Shown here piece after piece: positions 3,510 to 47,974 of a stretch of DNA of 64,000 bases. The notes below the pieces were generated by a model. The model ran no database searches, had not been told where the DNA came from, and saw only the letters and a list, made by a program, of their open reading frames with translations. Made by a program: the position numbers and the translations under genes. Source of the stretch: Pseudomonas lalkuanensis (GTDB taxonomy: Bacteria; Pseudomonadota; Gammaproteobacteria; Pseudomonadales; Pseudomonadaceae); contig NZ_CP043311.1 in assembly GCF_008807375.1 (NCBI RefSeq), forward strand, positions 3,390,001-3,454,000, in the 5' to 3' direction. The first letter of the stretch is position 1. Every line of letters begins with the position of its first letter.

Positions 3510-4277
3510 ATGGCCTTTCCGCTGAGTTTTGCCACCCTCCTGTTCCTGCTGATCGTGCTGGCGGTTTCGGCCATCCGCATCTTCCGAGAATACGAGCGCG
3601 GCGTGGTGTTCCAGCTCGGGCGCTTCTGGAAGGTCAAGGGGCCGGGGCTGGTGCTGATCATCCCGGCCATCCAGCAGGTGGTGCGGGTGGACCTGCGCAC
3701 CGTGGTGCTGGACGTGCCTCCCCAGGACGTGATTTCTCGCGACAACGTCTCGGTGAAGGTCAACGCAGTGCTCTACTTCCGGGTGCTGGACCCGCAACGC
3801 GCCATCATCCAGGTGGAGAACTTCCTCATGGCCACCAGCCAGTTGGCCCAGACCACCCTGCGCGCGGTGCTCGGCAAGCATGAGCTGGACGAGATGCTGG
3901 CCGAGCGCGAACGCCTCAACGTCGATATCCAGCAGGCCCTGGACTCCCAGACCGATGCCTGGGGCATCAAGGTCTCCAACGTCGAGATCAAGCACGTCGA
4001 CATCAACGAATCCATGGTCCGCGCCATCGCCCGCCAGGCCGAGGCCGAACGCGAACGCCGGGCCAAGGTGATCCACGCCGAAGGCGAGCTGCAGGCCTCG
4101 GAGAAACTGATGCAGGCCGCCGAGATGCTCAGCCGCCAGGACGGCGCCATGCAGTTGCGCTACATGCAGACGCTCGGCTCCATCGCCAATGACAAGACCA
4201 CCACTATCGTCTTCCCCCTGCCAGTGGACTTGCTCGGCGGCATGGCCAAGGGTGGGCGAAAGGACCAGGAAAGCTGA
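3510..4277 (+). CDS. Slipin (stomatin/prohibitin SPFH protein)
   Basis: A 255-residue SPFH-domain protein: one N-terminal membrane hairpin (residues 3-22), the signature [13 protein letters not shown], the [23 protein letters not shown] core, and an alanine/glutamate-rich coiled coil (about 165-215) typical of oligomer-forming slipins. It probably forms a membrane ring or microdomain and is processed or guarded by the NfeD protease encoded immediately upstream; the ribosome site AAAGGAG overlaps the end of nfeD. The conserved C-terminal hydrophobic segment ([13 protein letters not shown]) is the known kind of target for NfeD proteases. Confidence 0.93.
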
Positions 4278-4308
4278 CCGCATTCCCGAGATAGCCTGTT
4301 TCCCCCGA

Positions 4309-4335
4309 GGTTTTCAGGGAGATTCCCTGAAAACC
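4309..4335. terminator. Hairpin after the nfeD-slipin operon
   Basis: A perfect 12-bp stem (GGTTTTCAGGGA paired with TCCCTGAAAACC) around a three-base loop, 31 bases after the slipin stop and 77 bases before ald. There is no U tract on either side, so it may be a transcript-stabilising or attenuating hairpin rather than an intrinsic terminator. Confidence 0.5.
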
Positions 4336-4411
4336 AGCCACTATTCGGCGGGGGCGCAGCGGCCGGGTTTCTACACTTGTTCAAAGGACAACAAGAACCC
4401 TGGAGGTCGCC

Positions 4412-5533
4412 ATGCGTATCGGAGTGCCGAAGGAGATCAAGAACCACGAATACCGGGTCGGCCTGACCCCGCAATCTGTGGCCGAATTGACCCGCCTGGG
4501 GCATGAGGTCTGGGTGGAGACCAGGGCCGGTACCGCGATCGGATTTTCCGACGAGGACTACCAGGCCGCCGGTGCCAGGACTGCCAGCGGCGCCGGGGAG
4601 GTCTTCGAGCAAGCCGAACTCATCGTCAAGGTCAAGGAACCCCTGACCCAGGAGCGCGCGCGCCTGCGTCCGGAGCAGACCCTGTTCACCTACCTCCACC
4701 TGGCCCCGGATCGCCCGCAGACCGAAGAGCTGATCGCCTCCGGCGCCACCTGCATCGCCTACGAAACCGTCACCGACAGCCATGGCCGCCTGCCCCTGCT
4801 TGCGCCCATGTCGGAAGTGGCCGGGCGCATGTCCATCCAGGCCGGTGCCAGTTGCCTGGAAAAAGCCAAGGGCGGCCGTGGCGTGCTGCTGGGCGGCGTG
4901 CCCGGCGTGGCACCGGGCAAGGTCGTGGTGCTGGGCGGCGGCGTGGTCGGTACCCATGCGCTGGCCATGGCGGTCGGCCTGGGCGCCGATGTCACCGTTC
5001 TGGACAAGAGCGTGGACACCCTGCGCCGGCTCGACTCTCTCTACGGCAATCGCATCACCACCCTGTACTCCACCCACGGCACCGTGCGCGAGCAGGTGCT
5101 GGCGGCCGACCTGGTGATTGGCGGCGTACTCATCCCCGGCGCTGCCGCACCCAAGCTCATTACCGCCGAAATGGTGGCACGCATGCAGGAAGGTGCGGTG
5201 CTGGTGGATGTGGCCATCGACCAGGGCGGTTGTGCGGAAACTTCGCATGCCACCACCCACGCCGAGCCCACCTACGTAGTCGACGGCGTGGTGCACTACT
5301 GCGTGGCCAACATGCCCGGCGCCGTGGCACGTACCTCGACCCTGGCGCTGAACAACGCCACCCTGCCCTTCGTCATCGCCCTGGCGCAGAAAGGCACGCG
5401 CAAGGCGCTGGAAGACGACCTGCACCTGCGCCATGGCCTGAACGTGGCGAAGGGACGGCTCACCAATGGCAGCGTCGCCGCCGCGCATCGTATGGACTAC
5501 GTGCACCTGGAAGAAATGCTCAAGCTGCTTTGA
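4412..5533 (+). CDS. ald: Alanine dehydrogenase
   Basis: A 373-residue enzyme, the usual length, that interconverts L-alanine with pyruvate and ammonia using NAD. The N-terminus [20 protein letters not shown] is the AlaDH/PNT signature; the catalytic lysine lies in [16 protein letters not shown] sequence (residues about 74-97), and the Rossmann fold is visible at [13 protein letters not shown] (about 171-183). CAxTSHATTHxEPTY near residue 270 is also typical. A GGAGGT ribosome site lies nine bases before the ATG. No Lrp-type regulator is adjacent, although ald is often Lrp-controlled. It is a single gene followed by a REP pair. Confidence 0.96.
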
Positions 5534-5545
5534 GCTCATCTTCTT

Positions 5546-5610
5546 TCGCGATTGAAATCGCTCCCACAGGGCGCTCCGACTTCACCTTGTGGGAGCGAAT
5601 TCATTCGCGA
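5546..5610. repeat. REP pair, tail-to-tail
   Basis: An inverted arm CGCGATTGAAATCGCTCCCACA is followed by the direct arm TGTGGGAGCGAATTCATTCGCG with about 20 bases between. The two halves carry the two different arm types of this family (ATTTCAATCGC and AATTCATTCGC), and their order is the reverse of the composite elements at 39.6, 42.7 and 44.5 kb. Confidence 0.8.
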
Positions 5611-5981
5611 TGCCAGTCACGCCCCGGCTCAAACCTGCACATCTTTGCCGCAAATCCGACTAACGGCGATTCAGCATTTGACGTCAAAATGCCAGCATTC
5701 GCGCCACGCTGAAAGCCGCCCGGCCGACAGCCCGAAAGGCCCCCCTCTCCGGACCATAACCAGTATCAGAACCGGTAAGGGATAGCGGCACGTCGATACC
5801 CCGGCGCCCGCGATCCAGGCTCCGCCCCAGCACCCTGCCCCTGTTCCCCCGGCCCGCCACGCGGCGCCGGCGATAGCCCGTGGTGACGGCCAATGCCATG
5901 GATCGACTGACCCGCCCCAGGCACAACCTGCGCGCGGCAACCGGCATACCCCTGCCAGAAACCTTGGATGGATACCTTGCG
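5611..5981. other. Intergenic leader upstream of the chemoreceptor
   Basis: A 371-base stretch without a convincing gene. It contains the 12-bp perfect palindrome TTTGACGTCAAA at 5677-5688 inside a slightly longer imperfect inverted repeat (GCATTTGAC / GTCAAAATGC), which looks like an operator or part of a promoter region. I see no clear -35/-10 pair and no sigma-54 site. Confidence 0.4.
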
Positions 5982-7874
5982 ATGCCCTCAAACCTGAAGT
6001 TCAGCCAAAAGATCCTGCTGGCCGCCTCGCTGGTGATGATCGTGGCCTTCACCCTCTTCGTGCTGTTCAACGACTACCGCCAGCGCCAGGCCCTGAACGC
6101 CGACGTGCATGCCTCGCTGCAAGAGGTGGGCAGCCTGGCCACCCGCAACATCAAGACCTGGCTGGAGGGCCGCATCCAACTGGTGGAATCCCTGGCCCAG
6201 CAGTTGTCCAGCAATGGCCAGCAGGGCGAGCCGCTGACCGCCGCGCTGAACCTGCCGGTGTACGGCCAGCGCTTCCAGCTCACCTACTTCGGCGGCGTCG
6301 ACGGCGCCATGACCTCGGTTCCCGCCGGCAACCGTCCGGCCGATTACGACCCGCGCGTCCGTGGCTGGTACAAGGCCGCCAGCGCCATCCAGGGCACCGC
6401 CCTGACCGAGCCCTATATCGCCGCCTCGTCGCAGAAGCTGGTGATCACCATCGCCACGCCGGTTCACCGTGATGGCCAGATGGCCGGCGTGGCCGGCGCC
6501 GACATGGAGCTGGCGAACATCGCCCAACTGATCGACTCGCTGAAGCTCCAGGGCCATGGCCATGCCTTCCTGGTGAGCGCCGAAGGCAAGGTGCTGCTGC
6601 ACCCGGACAACCGCTACATCCTCAAGGGCATCAACGAGCTGTACCCGCAGGACACCCCGAAGGTGGCTGCCGGCGTCAGCGAGTTCGGGGTGGACGGCAA
6701 GACCCAGTTCATCGCCTTCACCCCGCTGGAAGGCCTGCCCGGCGCGAACTGGTACGTCGCCCTGGTGCTGGACCAGGACGCCGCCTTCGCCATGCTCGAT
6801 GAAGTGCGCACCTCGGCGATCGTCGCCACCCTGATCGCCGTGATCGCCACCGTCCTGCTGCTGGGCATGCTGATCCGCGTGCTGATGCAGCCGCTGCACC
6901 AGCTTGGCCATGCCATGCGCGAAATCGCCGATGGCGACGGCGACTTGACCAAGCGGCTCAGCGTTCACGCCCACGATGAGTTCGGTGCGGTGGCCACGTC
7001 CTTCAACCGCTTCGTCGAGCGCGTCCACGGCTCCATCCGCGAAGTGTCCTCAGCCACCACCCATGTGAACCAGGTGGCCAAGCTGGTGCTGAACGCCTCC
7101 AACTCGTCCATGAGCAACTCCGACGAGCAGGCCAACCGCACCAACAGCGTCGCCGCCGCGATCAACGAACTGGGCGCTGCCGCCCAGGAAATCGCCCGCA
7201 ACGCCGCCGATGCCTCGCACCAGGCCTCCTCCGCCCGCACCCTCGCCGAAGACGGTCGCCAGGTGGTGGAACGCACCATCGTCGCGATGAACGAGCTGTC
7301 CGGGAAGATCCGCGCTTCCTGCGGCAACATCGAGACGCTGAACAGCAAGACGGTGAACATCGGCCAGATCCTCGAGGTGATCAAGGGCATCTCCGAGCAG
7401 ACCAACCTGCTGGCGCTCAACGCCGCCATCGAGGCCGCCCGCGCCGGGGAAGCCGGCCGCGGCTTCGCCGTGGTGGCCGACGAGGTGCGCAACCTGGCCC
7501 ACCGCACCCAGGAATCGGCGCAGGAAATCCAGCAGATGATCGAGGAACTGCAGGTCGGCGCCCGCGAAGCGGTCACCACCATGACCGAGAGCCAGCGCTA
7601 CAGCGAGCAGAGCGTGGAAATCGCCAACCAGGCCGGCGAGCGACTGGGCAGCGTGACCCAGCGCATCGGCGAGATCGACGGCATGAACCAGTCGGTGGCC
7701 ACCGCCACCGAGGAACAGACCGCCGTGGTCGACTCGCTGAACATGGACATCACCGAGATCAACACCCTCAACCAGGAAGGCGTGGAAAACCTCCAGGCCA
7801 CCCTGCGTGCCTGCGCCGACCTGGACCAGCAGGCCGCACGGCTGCAGCAGCTGGTGGGGAGTTTCCGGATCTGA
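5982..7874 (+). CDS. Methyl-accepting chemotaxis protein, PctA-like dCACHE receptor
   Basis: A 630-residue transmembrane chemoreceptor. TM1 is at about 10-30, a periplasmic double-CACHE domain at about 31-270, TM2 at about 275-298, HAMP at about 300-350, and a signalling domain whose hairpin tip reads [19 protein letters not shown]. The N-terminus and length resemble the amino-acid receptors PctA/B/C. The amino-acid signature is present: Y122, R127, W129, Y130 in the YDPRVRGWY segment, and D174 in AGADMEL. Ligand is therefore probably an amino acid. An in-frame upstream extension exists to 5880, but the ATG at 5982 gives the family N-terminus; the ribosome site is weak (GGATGG). No C-terminal CheR-binding pentapeptide is seen. 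Confidence 0.93.
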
Positions 7875-44627: not shown

Positions 44628-46205
44628 TCAGCCCAGGAACAGCTTGCAGGCCGGGTTGTCGCTCTCTTCCCGGTACGGATAACCGATCTCGTCCAGTGCC
44701 TCGAAGATCAGGTGGTTCTCATCCTCCGGCACTTGCAGCCCGGCCAGCACGCGACCATCGGCGGCGCCGTGGTTGCGGTAGTGGAACAAGGTGATGTTCC
44801 AGCGCCCGCCCAGTTTGTCGAGGAAGTTGAACAGCGCCCCCGGACGCTCGGGGAATTCGAAGCGGAACAGCCGCTCTTCGCCAATGTACGCAGCGCGCCC
44901 CCCCACCATGTGGCGGATATGCACCTTCGCCAGCTCGTTCTCGGTCAGGTCGAGCACCGGGAAGCCCTGTTCCTGCAGGCTCTCCACCAGCGCCGCGCGC
45001 GGGTCGGTGAGCGGATGGGTCTGCACGCCGACGAAGATGTGCGCTTCGTCCCCCGAGTTGTAGCGGTAGTTGAACTCGGTGATCTGCCGCCGTCCGAGGG
45101 CCTCGCAGAAGGCCTTGAAGGCACCTGGACGCTCCGGCAGGGTCACGGCGATGATCGCCTCGCGCTTCTCCCCCAGTTCAGCGCGCTCTGCCACGTGGCG
45201 CAGGCGGTCGAAGTTGATGTTGGCGCCGGAATCGATGGCCACCAGGGTCTGGCCACCGACGCCATCACGCTCGACGTACTTCTTGATCCCGGCCACGGCC
45301 AGCGCGCCTGCAGGCTCGGTGATGGAGCGGGTGTCGTCGTAGATGTCCTTGATCGCCGCGCAGATTTCGTCGGCGCTCACCGTCAGCACTTCATCGACGA
45401 AATGCCGGCAGACCTCGAAGTTGTGCGCGCCGATCTGCGCCACCGCCACGCCATCGGCGAACAGCCCGACCTGCCCCAGCACCACGCGCTCTCCAGCGGC
45501 CATCGCAGCCTGCAGGCAGTTCGAGTCGTCCGGCTCGACGCCGATCACCTTCACGTCCGGACGCAGGTATTTCACATAGGCGGCGATCCCCGCGATCAGG
45601 CTGCCGCCGCCCACGGGCACGAAGATGGCGTCCAGGCGGCCGGCGTGCTGGCGGAGGATTTCCATCGCCACGGTGCCCTGCCCGGCGATCACATCCGGGT
45701 CGTCATAGGGCGGCACGAAGGTCAGCCCCTGCGCCGCTGCCAGCTTCAGGGCGTGGGCCAGGGCGTCGGGGAAGGCATCGCCATGCAGCACCACCTTGCC
45801 GCCACGGGAACGCACGCCGTGAACCTTCAGCTCCGGGGTGGTGCGCGGCATCACGATGGTCGCTTCAATGCCCAGCTCCCGCGCCGCCAGCGCCAGACCC
45901 TGAGCGTGGTTGCCGGCCGAAGCGGCAATCACGCCCCGCGCACGTTCTTCCGCGCTCAGTTGCACCACGCGGTTGTAGGCGCCACGGATCTTGAAGGAGT
46001 AGACCGGCTGCAGGTCCTCGCGCTTGAGCAGCACCTGGTTGCCCAGGCGTTCGCTGAGCTGACGCGCCGGCTGCAGGGGAGTCTCGATGGCCACGTCGTA
46101 CACCGGCGCCGCGAGGATCTTGCGCACGTAGTGCTTGAGCAGCGCCTCGCGCTCATCCAGCGGGCGCTCGGTGAGGTGTCCGGTTTGGGAAGTGAAGGTG
46201 GTCAT
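44628..46205 (-). CDS. ilvA: Threonine ammonia-lyase, biosynthetic
   Basis: A 525-residue PLP enzyme that turns threonine into 2-oxobutanoate, the first step toward isoleucine. The catalytic lysine is in YSFKIRGAYNRV (near residue 68), the PLP phosphate loop is VGGGSLIAG near 202, and two C-terminal ACT regulatory domains (about 340-415 and 435-510: ERPGAFKAFCEAL, ERPGALFNFLDKLGG) mark the isoleucine-inhibited biosynthetic form. Upstream at 46206-46392 on the same strand are a leader peptide with isoleucine codons and an attenuator terminator. Unlike many Pseudomonas genomes, rpiA is not the neighbour here. Confidence 0.96.
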   Translation of the reverse strand: MTTFTSQTGHLTERPLDEREALLKHYVRKILAAPVYDVAIETPLQPARQLSERLGNQVLLKREDLQPVYSFKIRGAYNRVVQLSAEERARGVIAASAGNHAQGLALAARELGIEATIVMPRTTPELKVHGVRSRGGKVVLHGDAFPDALAHALKLAAAQGLTFVPPYDDPDVIAGQGTVAMEILRQHAGRLDAIFVPVGGGSLIAGIAAYVKYLRPDVKVIGVEPDDSNCLQAAMAAGERVVLGQVGLFADGVAVAQIGAHNFEVCRHFVDEVLTVSADEICAAIKDIYDDTRSITEPAGALAVAGIKKYVERDGVGGQTLVAIDSGANINFDRLRHVAERAELGEKREAIIAVTLPERPGAFKAFCEALGRRQITEFNYRYNSGDEAHIFVGVQTHPLTDPRAALVESLQEQGFPVLDLTENELAKVHIRHMVGGRAAYIGEERLFRFEFPERPGALFNFLDKLGGRWNITLFHYRNHGAADGRVLAGLQVPEDENHLIFEALDEIGYPYREESDNPACKLFLG

Positions 46206-46250
46206 GCTGGGCTCCTGGTCTTGATTTCGGCACCCAGGAGACAGAAGGAA

Positions 46251-46316
46251 GAAACCCGCCTCGAGGGCGGGTTTCTGTTTGGTCGTCGGCTAACCCGCCA
46301 CTGCTGGAATGGCGGT
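46251..46316 (-). promoter_or_regulatory. Transcription attenuator of ilvA
   Basis: Read on the minus strand: segment 1 CCGCCA (46315-46310), segment 2 TGGCGGGTT (46300-46292), segment 3 GAAACCCGCC (46275-46266), segment 4 GGCGGGTTTC (46260-46251) followed by TTCCTTCTG. Possible pairs are 1:2 (six bp), 2:3 (eight bp, antiterminator) and 3:4 (ten bp, terminator). Segment 1 is within the isoleucine codon block of the leader peptide and segment 2 is its last codons, the classical arrangement. Confidence 0.85.
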
Positions 46317-46355
46317 AATAATCGCGGGGCCGGACAACCAAGGGGAATTAGTCAT
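46290..46355 (-). CDS. ilvA leader peptide (21 residues)
   Basis: A 21-codon frame beginning MTNSPWLSGPAIITAIP and ending in a TAG. Residues 12-16 are Ile-Ile-Thr-Ala-Ile and Val occurs at 19: the amino acids made or consumed by the branched-chain pathway. The stop lies in segment 2 of the attenuator. No Shine-Dalgarno sequence precedes the ATG, and the promoter candidate at 46363-46392 places transcription start at about the ATG, so it may be translated from a leaderless transcript. Too short for normal gene calling; the structure, not the peptide, is the evidence. Confidence 0.75.
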   Translation of the reverse strand: MTNSPWLSGPAIITAIPAVAG

Positions 46356-46362
46356 GGCGGCC

Positions 46363-46392
46363 AATCTAGAGGGCCTTTGGCCTTCAGGTCAA
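46363..46392 (-). promoter_or_regulatory. Promoter candidate for the ilvA leader
   Basis: TTGACC (46392-46387) and TAGATT (46368-46363) on the minus strand with an 18-base spacer; transcription would begin about seven bases on, at or next to the leader ATG at 46355. Confidence 0.45.
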
Positions 46393-46439
46393 GCAGCAAT
46401 TTCATTCAGCGCAAGTGGAAGAGTCGCGCTGGACAACGC

Positions 46440-46709
46440 TCAAACGACGTGATCGCGAACCACGCGCAGCTCGGCGGCATCCTGGTTCATGCGCTGGATC
46501 ACGTTGAACAGCTGCTCCTTCAGCACGGCGTCGCCGATCCGGTCGGCCGCGCGCATCACCGCCAGGGCGGCAGCCTCGTTGTTCATGGCCACGGCGTCCA
46601 GGGTCTTGCGGAAATTTCTAATGTTACGAGTCACACCAAAGGCCTCTGTCAAAGCTGGGAGCACCTTATTGAATGAATATTTCCTTTTGATTTCAGTGGC
46701 TTGGATCAA
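46440..46709 (-). CDS. Hypothetical small protein or gene fragment
   Basis: An 89-codon frame with two different compositions. The first 33 codons are AT-rich with A/T third positions (KRKYSFNKVLPALTEAFGVTRNIRN); from FRKTLDAVAMNNEAA onward third positions are G/C, like the neighbouring genes, giving a helical, Ala/Arg-rich end (ALAVMRAADRIGDAVLKEQ). An internal ATG at 46586 could start a 48-residue product. I do not recognise it; it may be the tail of a gene whose front was lost in a rearrangement, with the junction near 46610. The ilvA promoter begins about 50 bases beyond its stop. Confidence 0.4.
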   Translation of the reverse strand: MIQATEIKRKYSFNKVLPALTEAFGVTRNIRNFRKTLDAVAMNNEAAALAVMRAADRIGDAVLKEQLFNVIQRMNQDAAELRVVRDHVV

Positions 46710-46792
46710 TGAAACCGTCGGGCCAATTTGACCTTGCGCACACCATTCACCAAGCTAGCGGCTTCGATTCACCCCATCAGGAACCGCAAGAC

Positions 46793-47974
46793 GTGATTGC
46801 CCCCCTCTTCCGCCGGGGCCGGCTGGCGCTGTGCGTCGCCGCCCTGCTCTCCCTGCTCGCCGGTTGCGACAAGGAGCCCGCCAAGCCCGAGCCGCCCAAG
46901 GTCGATACCTACACCCGGGCGAGCTGGGAAGAACTCCCCGCCAGCAGCGACGCCGATGTGATCGCCGGCTTCACAGCCTGGCGCTCCGCCTGCGCACGCC
47001 TGGCCAAGGACCCGATCTGGTCCGCCACCTGCACCAGCGCGGCCCAGGTGCAGGAAGACCCGGCCGCCGTTCGCGCCTGGCTCAAGGAGCAACTCGAGGT
47101 CTACAGCCTGCGCAATGCACGCAACAGTCCCCAGGGCCTGATCACCGGTTACTACGAGCCGGTGTACGCCGGCAGCCTGGAGCGCAGCGAGCAGACGCCG
47201 GTGCCGGTCTACGGCGTGCCCGAAGACATGATCGTGGTCGCCCTGGACAGTCTCTACCCGGAACTCAAGGGCAAGCGCCTGCGCGGACGCCTGGAAGGCC
47301 GCGTGCTCAAGCCCTATGACGACGCCGCCACCATTCGCGCCCAGGGCGTCAAGGCGCCGGTGCTGGCCTGGCTCACCAACCCGATGGACCTGCAGTTCCT
47401 GCAGATCCAGGGTTCCGGCCGCATCCAGCTGGAAAGCGGCCGCCAGCTGCGCATCGGTTACGCCGACCAGAATGGCCACCCGTATCGGCCGGTAGGCCGC
47501 TGGCTGGTGGAACAGGGCCAGCTCAAACAGGAAGAAGTCAGCATGGGCAAGATCCGCGACTGGGCCAGCGCCAACCCGCAGCGGGTGCCGGAACTGCTGG
47601 CGAGCAACCCGAGCTTCGTCTTCTTCGGCCTCAATCCGGACAGCAACGAGGGTCCGCGAGGCTCCCTCAACGTGCCGCTCACCGCCGGCTACAGCGTGGC
47701 CATCGACCGCAAGGTGATCCCGCTGGGCAGCCTGCTCTGGCTCTCCACCACCCGCCCCGACGGCAGCCCGGTGATCCGCCCGGTCGCGGCCCAGGACACC
47801 GGCGGCGCCATCGCCGGCGAAGTGCGCGCCGACCTGTTCTGGGGCACCGGCGCGGAGGCCGGCGAGCTGGCCGGCAACATGAAGCAGCAGGGCCAGATCT
47901 GGCTGCTCTGGCCCAAGGGCATCCCGTTGCCCGCCGTAGCCGCGCCAACCCAAGGCCCGGGCAGCAAGTCCTGA
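46793..47974 (+). CDS. mltA: Membrane-bound lytic murein transglycosylase A
   Basis: A 393-residue lipoprotein that cleaves the glycan strands of peptidoglycan to 1,6-anhydro-muropeptides. The signal ends in the lipobox LLAGC with Asp at +2. The MltA domain (about 110-280) contains LITGYYEPVYAGS and FLQIQGSGRI, and the 3D domain near the C-terminus holds the catalytic aspartate in VAAQDTGGAI. The likely start is GTG at 46793 with AGGA ten bases before it, which gives a normal signal peptide; an ATG at 46709 would add 28 residues without signal features. An 8-bp hairpin lies 30 bases after the stop. Confidence 0.92.
   Translation: MIAPLFRRGRLALCVAALLSLLAGCDKEPAKPEPPKVDTYTRASWEELPASSDADVIAGFTAWRSACARLAKDPIWSATCTSAAQVQEDPAAVRAWLKEQLEVYSLRNARNSPQGLITGYYEPVYAGSLERSEQTPVPVYGVPEDMIVVALDSLYPELKGKRLRGRLEGRVLKPYDDAATIRAQGVKAPVLAWLTNPMDLQFLQIQGSGRIQLESGRQLRIGYADQNGHPYRPVGRWLVEQGQLKQEEVSMGKIRDWASANPQRVPELLASNPSFVFFGLNPDSNEGPRGSLNVPLTAGYSVAIDRKVIPLGSLLWLSTTRPDGSPVIRPVAAQDTGGAIAGEVRADLFWGTGAEAGELAGNMKQQGQIWLLWPKGIPLPAVAAPTQGPGSKS

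Follow-up and report, generated by a model that had tools for sequence, protein, structure and literature searches.

The window, as we call the whole 64,000-nt stretch of Pseudomonas lalkuanensis DNA analysed here, carries on its minus strand ilvA (44628–46205, ATG at 46205), which encodes a 525-residue threonine ammonia-lyase. Its product matches NF009130 and the biosynthetic threonine ammonia-lyase model TIGR01124, the latter with 798.4 bits against a cut-off of 411.3. A probable 5-guanidino-2-oxopentanoate decarboxylase gene (NF005712) follows on the same strand, about 190–240 nt 3' of ilvA depending on the start chosen, and the divergent mltA (PF03562) lies upstream of the ilvA leader. An 89-residue ORF (46440–46709, minus strand) sits just 5' of the leader promoter; Pfam and NCBIfam searches with it gave no match.

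The leader occupies 46251–46392 and is described here as read on the minus strand. A sigma-70-type promoter (46392–46363) consists of a −35-like TTGACC (46392–46387) and, after 18 nt, a −10-like TAGATT (46368–46363); the promoter scan found no other such pair on either strand of 45900–46900, where 0.1 is expected from shuffles. Seven nt past the −10 box, the ATG at 46355 opens an ORF of 21 codons plus TAG (MTNSPWLSGPAIITAIPAVAG, 46355–46290), in which ATT ATT ACC GCC ATT encode Ile12-Ile13-Thr14-Ala15-Ile16 (46322–46308). Motif counts and alignments support segment 1, CCGCCA (46315–46310), which forms the 5' side of the inner 1:2 helix, and segment 2, TGGCGGGTT (46300–46292); alignments support segment 3, GAAACCCGCC (46275–46266), and, together with folding, segment 4, GGCGGGTTTC (46260–46251), which completes the 3:4 terminator hairpin (46275–46251, −17.6 kcal/mol). 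The preliminary description of this DNA had proposed a promoter 7 bases before the ATG, the 21-codon ORF and the four segments, with segment 1 inside the isoleucine codons and segment 2 within the last codons and the stop codon. All are present on the minus strand where it placed them, and the coordinates bear out the position of both segments relative to the codons.

The 1:2 hairpin is longer than had been described, in that codons of the leader also pair with the bases that separate segment 2 from segment 3. This outer helix joins TTGGTTGTC (46341–46333), inside codons 5–8, to GACGACCAA (46287–46279), with a duplex energy of −18.9 kcal/mol that none of 200 shuffles equalled. Likewise, 0/200 shuffles equalled the fold from the ATG to the terminator end (z −4.83) or that of the terminator hairpin (z −4.53). 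The T-rich run claimed to follow 3:4 does exist, but it is poor in the window (TTCCTTCT) and better in many relatives; a terminator scan requiring 5 T in 8 reported zero sites at the leader in the window. Past the terminator, CTCCTGG...CCAGGAG (46240–46212) may form a hairpin covering the Shine-Dalgarno sequence of ilvA, which is weak in the window (z −0.70, 39/200 shuffles equal it) and commoner in relatives.

P9 and the relatives of the leader

Rfam family RF00624, 'Pseudomonas sRNA P9' (type 'Gene'), matches 46325–46251 with 76.1 bits, well above its gathering cut-off of 43. The match covers model positions 1–74 and begins inside the ORF, so the P9 model lacks the leader ATG. P9 is the same element as the window leader, catalogued in Rfam as an sRNA gene, and of 18 divergent loci scored with its model, 15 passed the cut-off while L080, L109 and L172 did not. 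It is also the only Rfam family that reached its gathering score in the window, and the leader was accordingly not assigned to the T-box class.

All 18 genomes examined in the genus carry RF00624, including the window's own, which has one match. In 38 relatives, 24 genomes were matched at E 0.001 and 22 were over the cut-off, with 3 of the 26 matches read as chance; across the family, the figures were 70 and 66 of 148 genomes, and the cut-off was reached in none of 14 control genomes. At E 0.01, model R1 gave matches in 47 of 390 genomes of the order, from which 19 new loci were inspected. At E 0.001, model R2 matched 6 of 369 genomes in the class and 29 of 398 in the phylum, counts that include the own genome and at least one chance-looking match (L248). 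A pattern scan of genomes added at least 120 loci, 115 of them kept among the matches listed. Going by genome titles, with three lineages checked, the hosts among the matches listed are Pseudomonas, Achromobacter, Bordetella genomosp. 5, Duganella, Serratia, Marinomonas, Amphritea, Microbulbifer, Neorhizobium, Peteryoungia, Rhizobium, Hankyongella and others. The leader type is present in Alpha-, Beta- and Gammaproteobacteria.

The 205 loci gathered for comparison omit two weak partial P9 matches (G110 and G145). Matches read as chance (L024–L026, L081, L082) and pattern matches within proteins (L125, L140, L143, L182, L203) were also dropped before counting; without three loci that had short upstream sequence (L123, L189, L225), and with identical leaders collapsed, the 205 loci gave 172 distinct leaders. 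Alignment A4 holds the 75 leaders that remain after those at least 88% alike are dropped, L147 being without a full terminator. Alignment A2 was built from 63 of 64 leaders (L038 omitted); in it the terminator loop is out of place in the L067 group, so that three pairs show 7 unpaired cells each, and pairing counts were taken by motif and from A4. The compared leaders are kin, and the shuffle counts given below are therefore not probabilities.

Peptide and pairings among the relatives

In the frame test, 168 of the 172 leaders could be assigned and 4 could not. The first ATG past the −10 box shares its reading frame with the isoleucine codons, with no stop intervening, in 90 of the 91 leaders found with a pattern blind to the ATG, where chance would give one third. 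The same was found in 56 of 61 assigned leaders from Rfam matches and in all 16 derived from R1, which carry lower weight as R1 includes the ATG; from all sources together, the count is 162 of 168. Four of the six exceptions belong to the L067 group, for which the script picked a wrong −10 box. The ATG stands 27 to 39 nt ahead of the core in the 162 in-frame leaders, and all 23 rows of alignment A1 share TTGAC. In its N-terminal half, the peptide differs widely among lineages.

The leaderless-type spacing that had been pointed out in the window is kept, the −10 box ending 6–9 nt before the ATG in 155 of the 168 assigned leaders. Because this is the usual distance from a −10 box to the start of transcription, the leader is probably leaderless, and the predicted peptide would probably be translated from the very 5' end of the RNA. 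Besides this probable leaderless start, the element has an unusually well kept core.

How a stalled ribosome would act was deduced by assuming that it covers the RNA up to 15 nt beyond the P codon's first base. A stall with the A site at Ile12 or Ile13 would then hide segment 1 and keep segment 2 available for pairing. The same would hold for a stall anywhere at codons 12–15, while a stall at Ile16 would free segment 2 in part, and a ribosome at Val19 or at the stop codon would mask all of it. Over the 75 leaders, 212 of the 389 residues inside this effective window are isoleucine, compared with 14 of 651 in the codons ahead of it and 66 of 362 in those that follow, and each of the 75 has at least one isoleucine inside it; the statistic is not independent, the searches themselves favouring an isoleucine run. 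The other residues in the effective window include Thr (65), Ala (45), Leu (5) and Val (3). Some distant leaders (L265, L276, L277) hold little isoleucine, and the specificity may have drifted there.

Two other sensor types were considered and rejected. A stall at the Val codon should leave termination in place, because a ribosome there would, with the assumed footprint, already cover segment 2. A multivalent attenuator of the ilvGMEDA type, with Ile, Val and Leu control codons, does not agree with 5 Leu and 3 Val beside 212 Ile among 389 residues.

The 6-bp cores of all three pairings (1:2, 2:3 and 3:4) are fully paired in 160 of 172 leaders by motif count. One position varies in concert across segments 1-2-3-4, as G-C-G-C in 121 leaders, A-T-G-C in 39, A-T-A-T in 9 and otherwise in 3. 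On A4, 99.3% of the cells of 1:2 plus 3:4 pair, compared with 33 to 54% in slid controls; there are 42 two-sided changes against 12.7 (sd 7.7) in shuffles, and the covariation score is 0.185 against 0.130, neither value being reached in any of 500 shuffles. The number of pair types shows no excess over shuffles for 1:2 plus 3:4 (238/500 as high; 75 rows). For 2:3, 91.6% of cells pair, against 91.0% in shuffles and 25 to 69% in slid controls; two-sided changes are few, and the pairs that carry them are no more numerous than in shuffles (319/500 as high; 75 rows). The 2:3 core thus appears mainly conserved rather than covarying, as would follow from a segment being tied to two partners. Regarding the outer 1:2 helix, own arms gave −12.2 kcal/mol and arms swapped between leaders −8.1 kcal/mol (75 leaders); the helix lies in the best 5% of shuffles in 30/75 leaders and in the best 5% of swaps in 24/75. 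In Marinomonas, the outer arms form 14 unbroken pairs.

These data qualify the preliminary description in two points. The three overlapping pairings it drew are present in the window, but the two outer U-A pairs of 2:3 are weak in relatives, being formed in just 39 and 62 of 75 non-redundant leaders. It had also proposed comparing homologous leaders for isoleucine codons and compensatory changes; the peptide, the codons and the pairings turn out to be kept, with compensatory changes in 1:2 and 3:4, but 2:3 is mainly conserved.

Genes behind the leader

On the same strand and within 230 nt, 165 of the 172 leaders precede a gene of one of five families. The target is ilvA in 111 cases. In others it is a SnoaL-like gene, with ilvA next after it in 11 leaders and on its own in 15. 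A first P-loop family accounts for 22, an AAA_33 P-loop family for 4 and isoleucyl-tRNA synthetase (ileS) for 2. The remaining 7 are unmatched to a target, 6 of them having less than 200 nt of sequence beyond. At the 26 loci from the class- and phylum-level searches, the first P-loop family occurs 8 times, the second 7, the SnoaL-like family 6 and ilvA once; 4 loci have none of these.

Both ileS cases (L195, gene at 3658–6973, and L215) come from Marinomonas, with RIIIIIP as the leader run. The L195 protein was identified with TIGR00392 (953.4 bits, cut-off 621.4) and that of L215 by similarity. A DUF5915 domain is seen in the L195 synthetase. The SnoaL-like protein (DUF4440) matched YybH among solved structures (2gxf, E 2.1e-29); it stands alone behind the leader in Pseudomonas, Sulfuriferula and Alphaproteobacteria (the SnoaL rows of L067–L080, and L175, L178, L183, L205, L211, L234). 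The first P-loop protein, of about 174 residues, weakly matches the 'DNA topology modulation protein' model NF005994 (L021–L023, L095, L096, L100–L112, L115, L116, L132, L162, L163), and its leaders mostly hold four or five isoleucine codons with the stop soon after. The second (AAA_33) P-loop protein (L138, L172, L181, L230, L264–L266, L268, L270, L271, L277) gave 23.9 bits with a homoserine kinase model, which, being far below the cut-off of 197, is a lead only. A search of solved structures with both P-loop proteins returned nothing useful. We know of no link of the SnoaL-like and the two P-loop families to isoleucine.

Two further leaders are noted for their neighbours. A Photobacterium leader with IIIII (L221) has, 303 nt past the terminator, an open frame of at least 53 residues that looks by eye like an amino-acid exporter. 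A weak R2 match (L275, E 4.9e-4), with the peptide MQQFLMPITMTIITICSVAG, precedes an ORF read by eye as aspartokinase/homoserine dehydrogenase (ThrA), and is probably an attenuator of the known thr kind.

In many leaders, an arm past the terminator can pair with the Shine-Dalgarno sequence of the target gene. Among 111 distinct leaders with a recognisable site (near-duplicates removed, L181 omitted), the Shine-Dalgarno sequence is less accessible than the mean of its shuffled controls in 89, and falls in the lowest 5% of 60 shuffles in 33, where 5.5 would be expected, the sequences being related. On A2, 75.7% of the cells of this hairpin pair (shuffles 72.5%), with 18 two-sided changes against 8.1.

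The genome of the window has a second ilvA (L238, G000:C1:326803–328338), 82% identical, and the 471 nt read around its start hold no such leader. This copy, like the identity with P9, the expected lack of effect of a stall at the Val codon and the wider range of targets, was absent from the preliminary description.

Probable attenuation by isoleucine supply and its alternatives

We consider it highly probable that the ilvA leader is a ribosome-mediated transcription attenuator that senses charged tRNA-Ile through a leaderless peptide. The basis for this is observed and comprises sequence features, conservation, covariation and gene context. First, the leader contains a short ORF, predicted to be translated, with a run of regulatory codons. 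Second, mutually exclusive 1:2, 2:3 and 3:4 pairings appear to be placed as an attenuator requires, 2:3 mainly by conservation. Third, the gene behind the leader would make isoleucine (ilvA) or charge tRNA-Ile (ileS). Expression agrees as well, P9 RNA being reported from P. aeruginosa PA14 (PMC3272035). As far as sequence goes, the classical attenuation reading of the preliminary description is well supported, as homologous leaders keep both the peptide and the pairings that it would require.

The start site, translation, stalling, termination and response to isoleucine are predicted steps of this mechanism. Going by the promoter spacing, transcription would begin at or beside the ATG, and translation would be leaderless. 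When isoleucine is ample, the ribosome would reach the stop codon and cover segment 2, 3:4 would form and transcription would end; the terminated RNA, of about 105–110 nt, would be the catalogued 'sRNA P9'. When isoleucine is short, a stall at Ile12 or Ile13 would mask segment 1, so that 2:3 could pair before segment 4 is made and RNA polymerase would continue into ilvA. If the leader were left untranslated, the long 1:2 hairpin would form and transcription would end. Such regulation would have to be kinetic, because at equilibrium 3:4 wins at every stall position tried, 2:3 alone reaching −12.2 kcal/mol. Classical attenuators are held to act kinetically. Further points that weigh against the reading are the poor T-rich run in the window, the partial covariation, the Thr and Ala codons among the control codons, which may allow a mixed response, and the low isoleucine content of some distant leaders.

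The ilvGMEDA and ilvBN attenuators of enterobacteria govern operons and are multivalent, with regulatory codons for branched-chain residues. The window leader shares their logic, namely a peptide with regulatory codons, 1:2/2:3/3:4 alternatives and a putative intrinsic terminator, and differs in having isoleucine as the common residue, in its probable leaderless start and in serving one of the genome's two ilvA copies. The attenuator of the thr operon has isoleucine and threonine codons in its leader, as does the leader in the window; leader sequence and target differ. Another likeness is with trpL/rnTrpL of Sinorhizobium meliloti, where the ATG of the peptide is the 5' end of the RNA (as predicted in the window) and the attenuated RNA is likewise called an sRNA (PMC7298713, PMC10117765). 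There, rnTrpL senses tryptophan and has shown functions in trans, whereas the window leader has an isoleucine run and is predicted to act in cis.

This precedent invites the question whether the terminated RNA or the peptide also acts in trans, as rnTrpL/peTrpL does in S. meliloti from a likewise leaderless attenuator (PMC7298713, PMC10117765). P9 is named among the sRNAs of Livny et al. 2006 in a later paper (BMC Genomics 2008 9:167, PMC2375449), and a further study reports it as a short RNA in P. aeruginosa PA14, at 1436491–1436618 on the minus strand (PLoS One 2012 e31092, PMC3272035). The 128 nt of this interval exceed the 105 nt from ATG to terminator in the window, a point against the attenuator reading that concerns length only. 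An attenuator with an added trans function is nevertheless a minor possibility in our estimate, as the N-terminal half of the peptide varies across lineages.

It is also improbable that threonine, or a group of several amino acids, is the signal in place of isoleucine alone. The runs IITAI and IITTI bring Thr and Ala into the effective window, where 65 Thr and 45 Ala occur among 389 residues, threonine lies within the run in 5 of 22 leaders of the first P-loop family, and attenuators of the thr kind use threonine and isoleucine codons. However, the isoleucine run is free of threonine in the other 17 of these 22 leaders and in both ileS leaders, and isoleucine itself is present in the effective window of every one of the 75 leaders.

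That P9 is a stand-alone trans-acting sRNA whose position before ilvA is incidental seems very improbable to us. Rfam lists it with type 'Gene' as 'Pseudomonas sRNA P9', and PMC3272035 treats it as an experimentally confirmed sRNA, with a log2 change of +1.59 in stationary (P-12) over late exponential culture. Yet the placement of 165 of 172 leaders within 230 nt before five gene families argues against an incidental position, and a plain sRNA should have neither an in-frame, isoleucine-rich ORF nor the alternative 2:3 pairing. It is hardly credible that the small upstream ORF simply ends in an ordinary terminator with a chance likeness to an attenuator: that ORF does end at 46440 on the same strand, and a short hairpin alone is commonplace (as at L024–L026, L081 and L082, read as chance), but the promoter and the leader ORF stand between it and the terminator, promoter, ORF and pairings are conserved, and the whole array is met again in further families and classes within the phylum.

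What appears to be new is that Rfam P9 would be an attenuator, with isoleucine as the likely signal, and that it recurs before a few other genes. In the open-access literature searched, no title or abstract start links P9 to ilvA or to attenuation, or describes a Pseudomonas ilvA attenuator, nor does this material give P9 a cis role, a leader peptide or a connection with isoleucine. The main texts of PMC2965389, PMC3349714, PMC2864571, PMC3460626, PMC3247240 and PMC2659441 are silent on any Pseudomonas ilv attenuator. It may have been mentioned before, because the subscription literature lies outside the scope of the search.

With regard to the wider family, we lean towards the view that a single leaderless isoleucine-attenuator cassette, homologous throughout, was retained or came to lie before ilvA, ileS, the YybH-like SnoaL gene and the two P-loop families in Alpha-, Beta- and Gammaproteobacteria, with many copies adding the Shine-Dalgarno hairpin, and that it marks a set of isoleucine-starvation genes. 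Shared regulation of this kind would tie the YybH-like SnoaL and the two P-loop families to isoleucine starvation. Our reading would supply a concrete, testable function for a family that Rfam lists among sRNAs, and the conserved, probably leaderless leader peptide would offer a clean system for studying the coupling of leaderless initiation to transcription. This reading also suggests a reason for the two close ilvA copies, in that the leader-bearing copy could be a reserve for isoleucine shortage.
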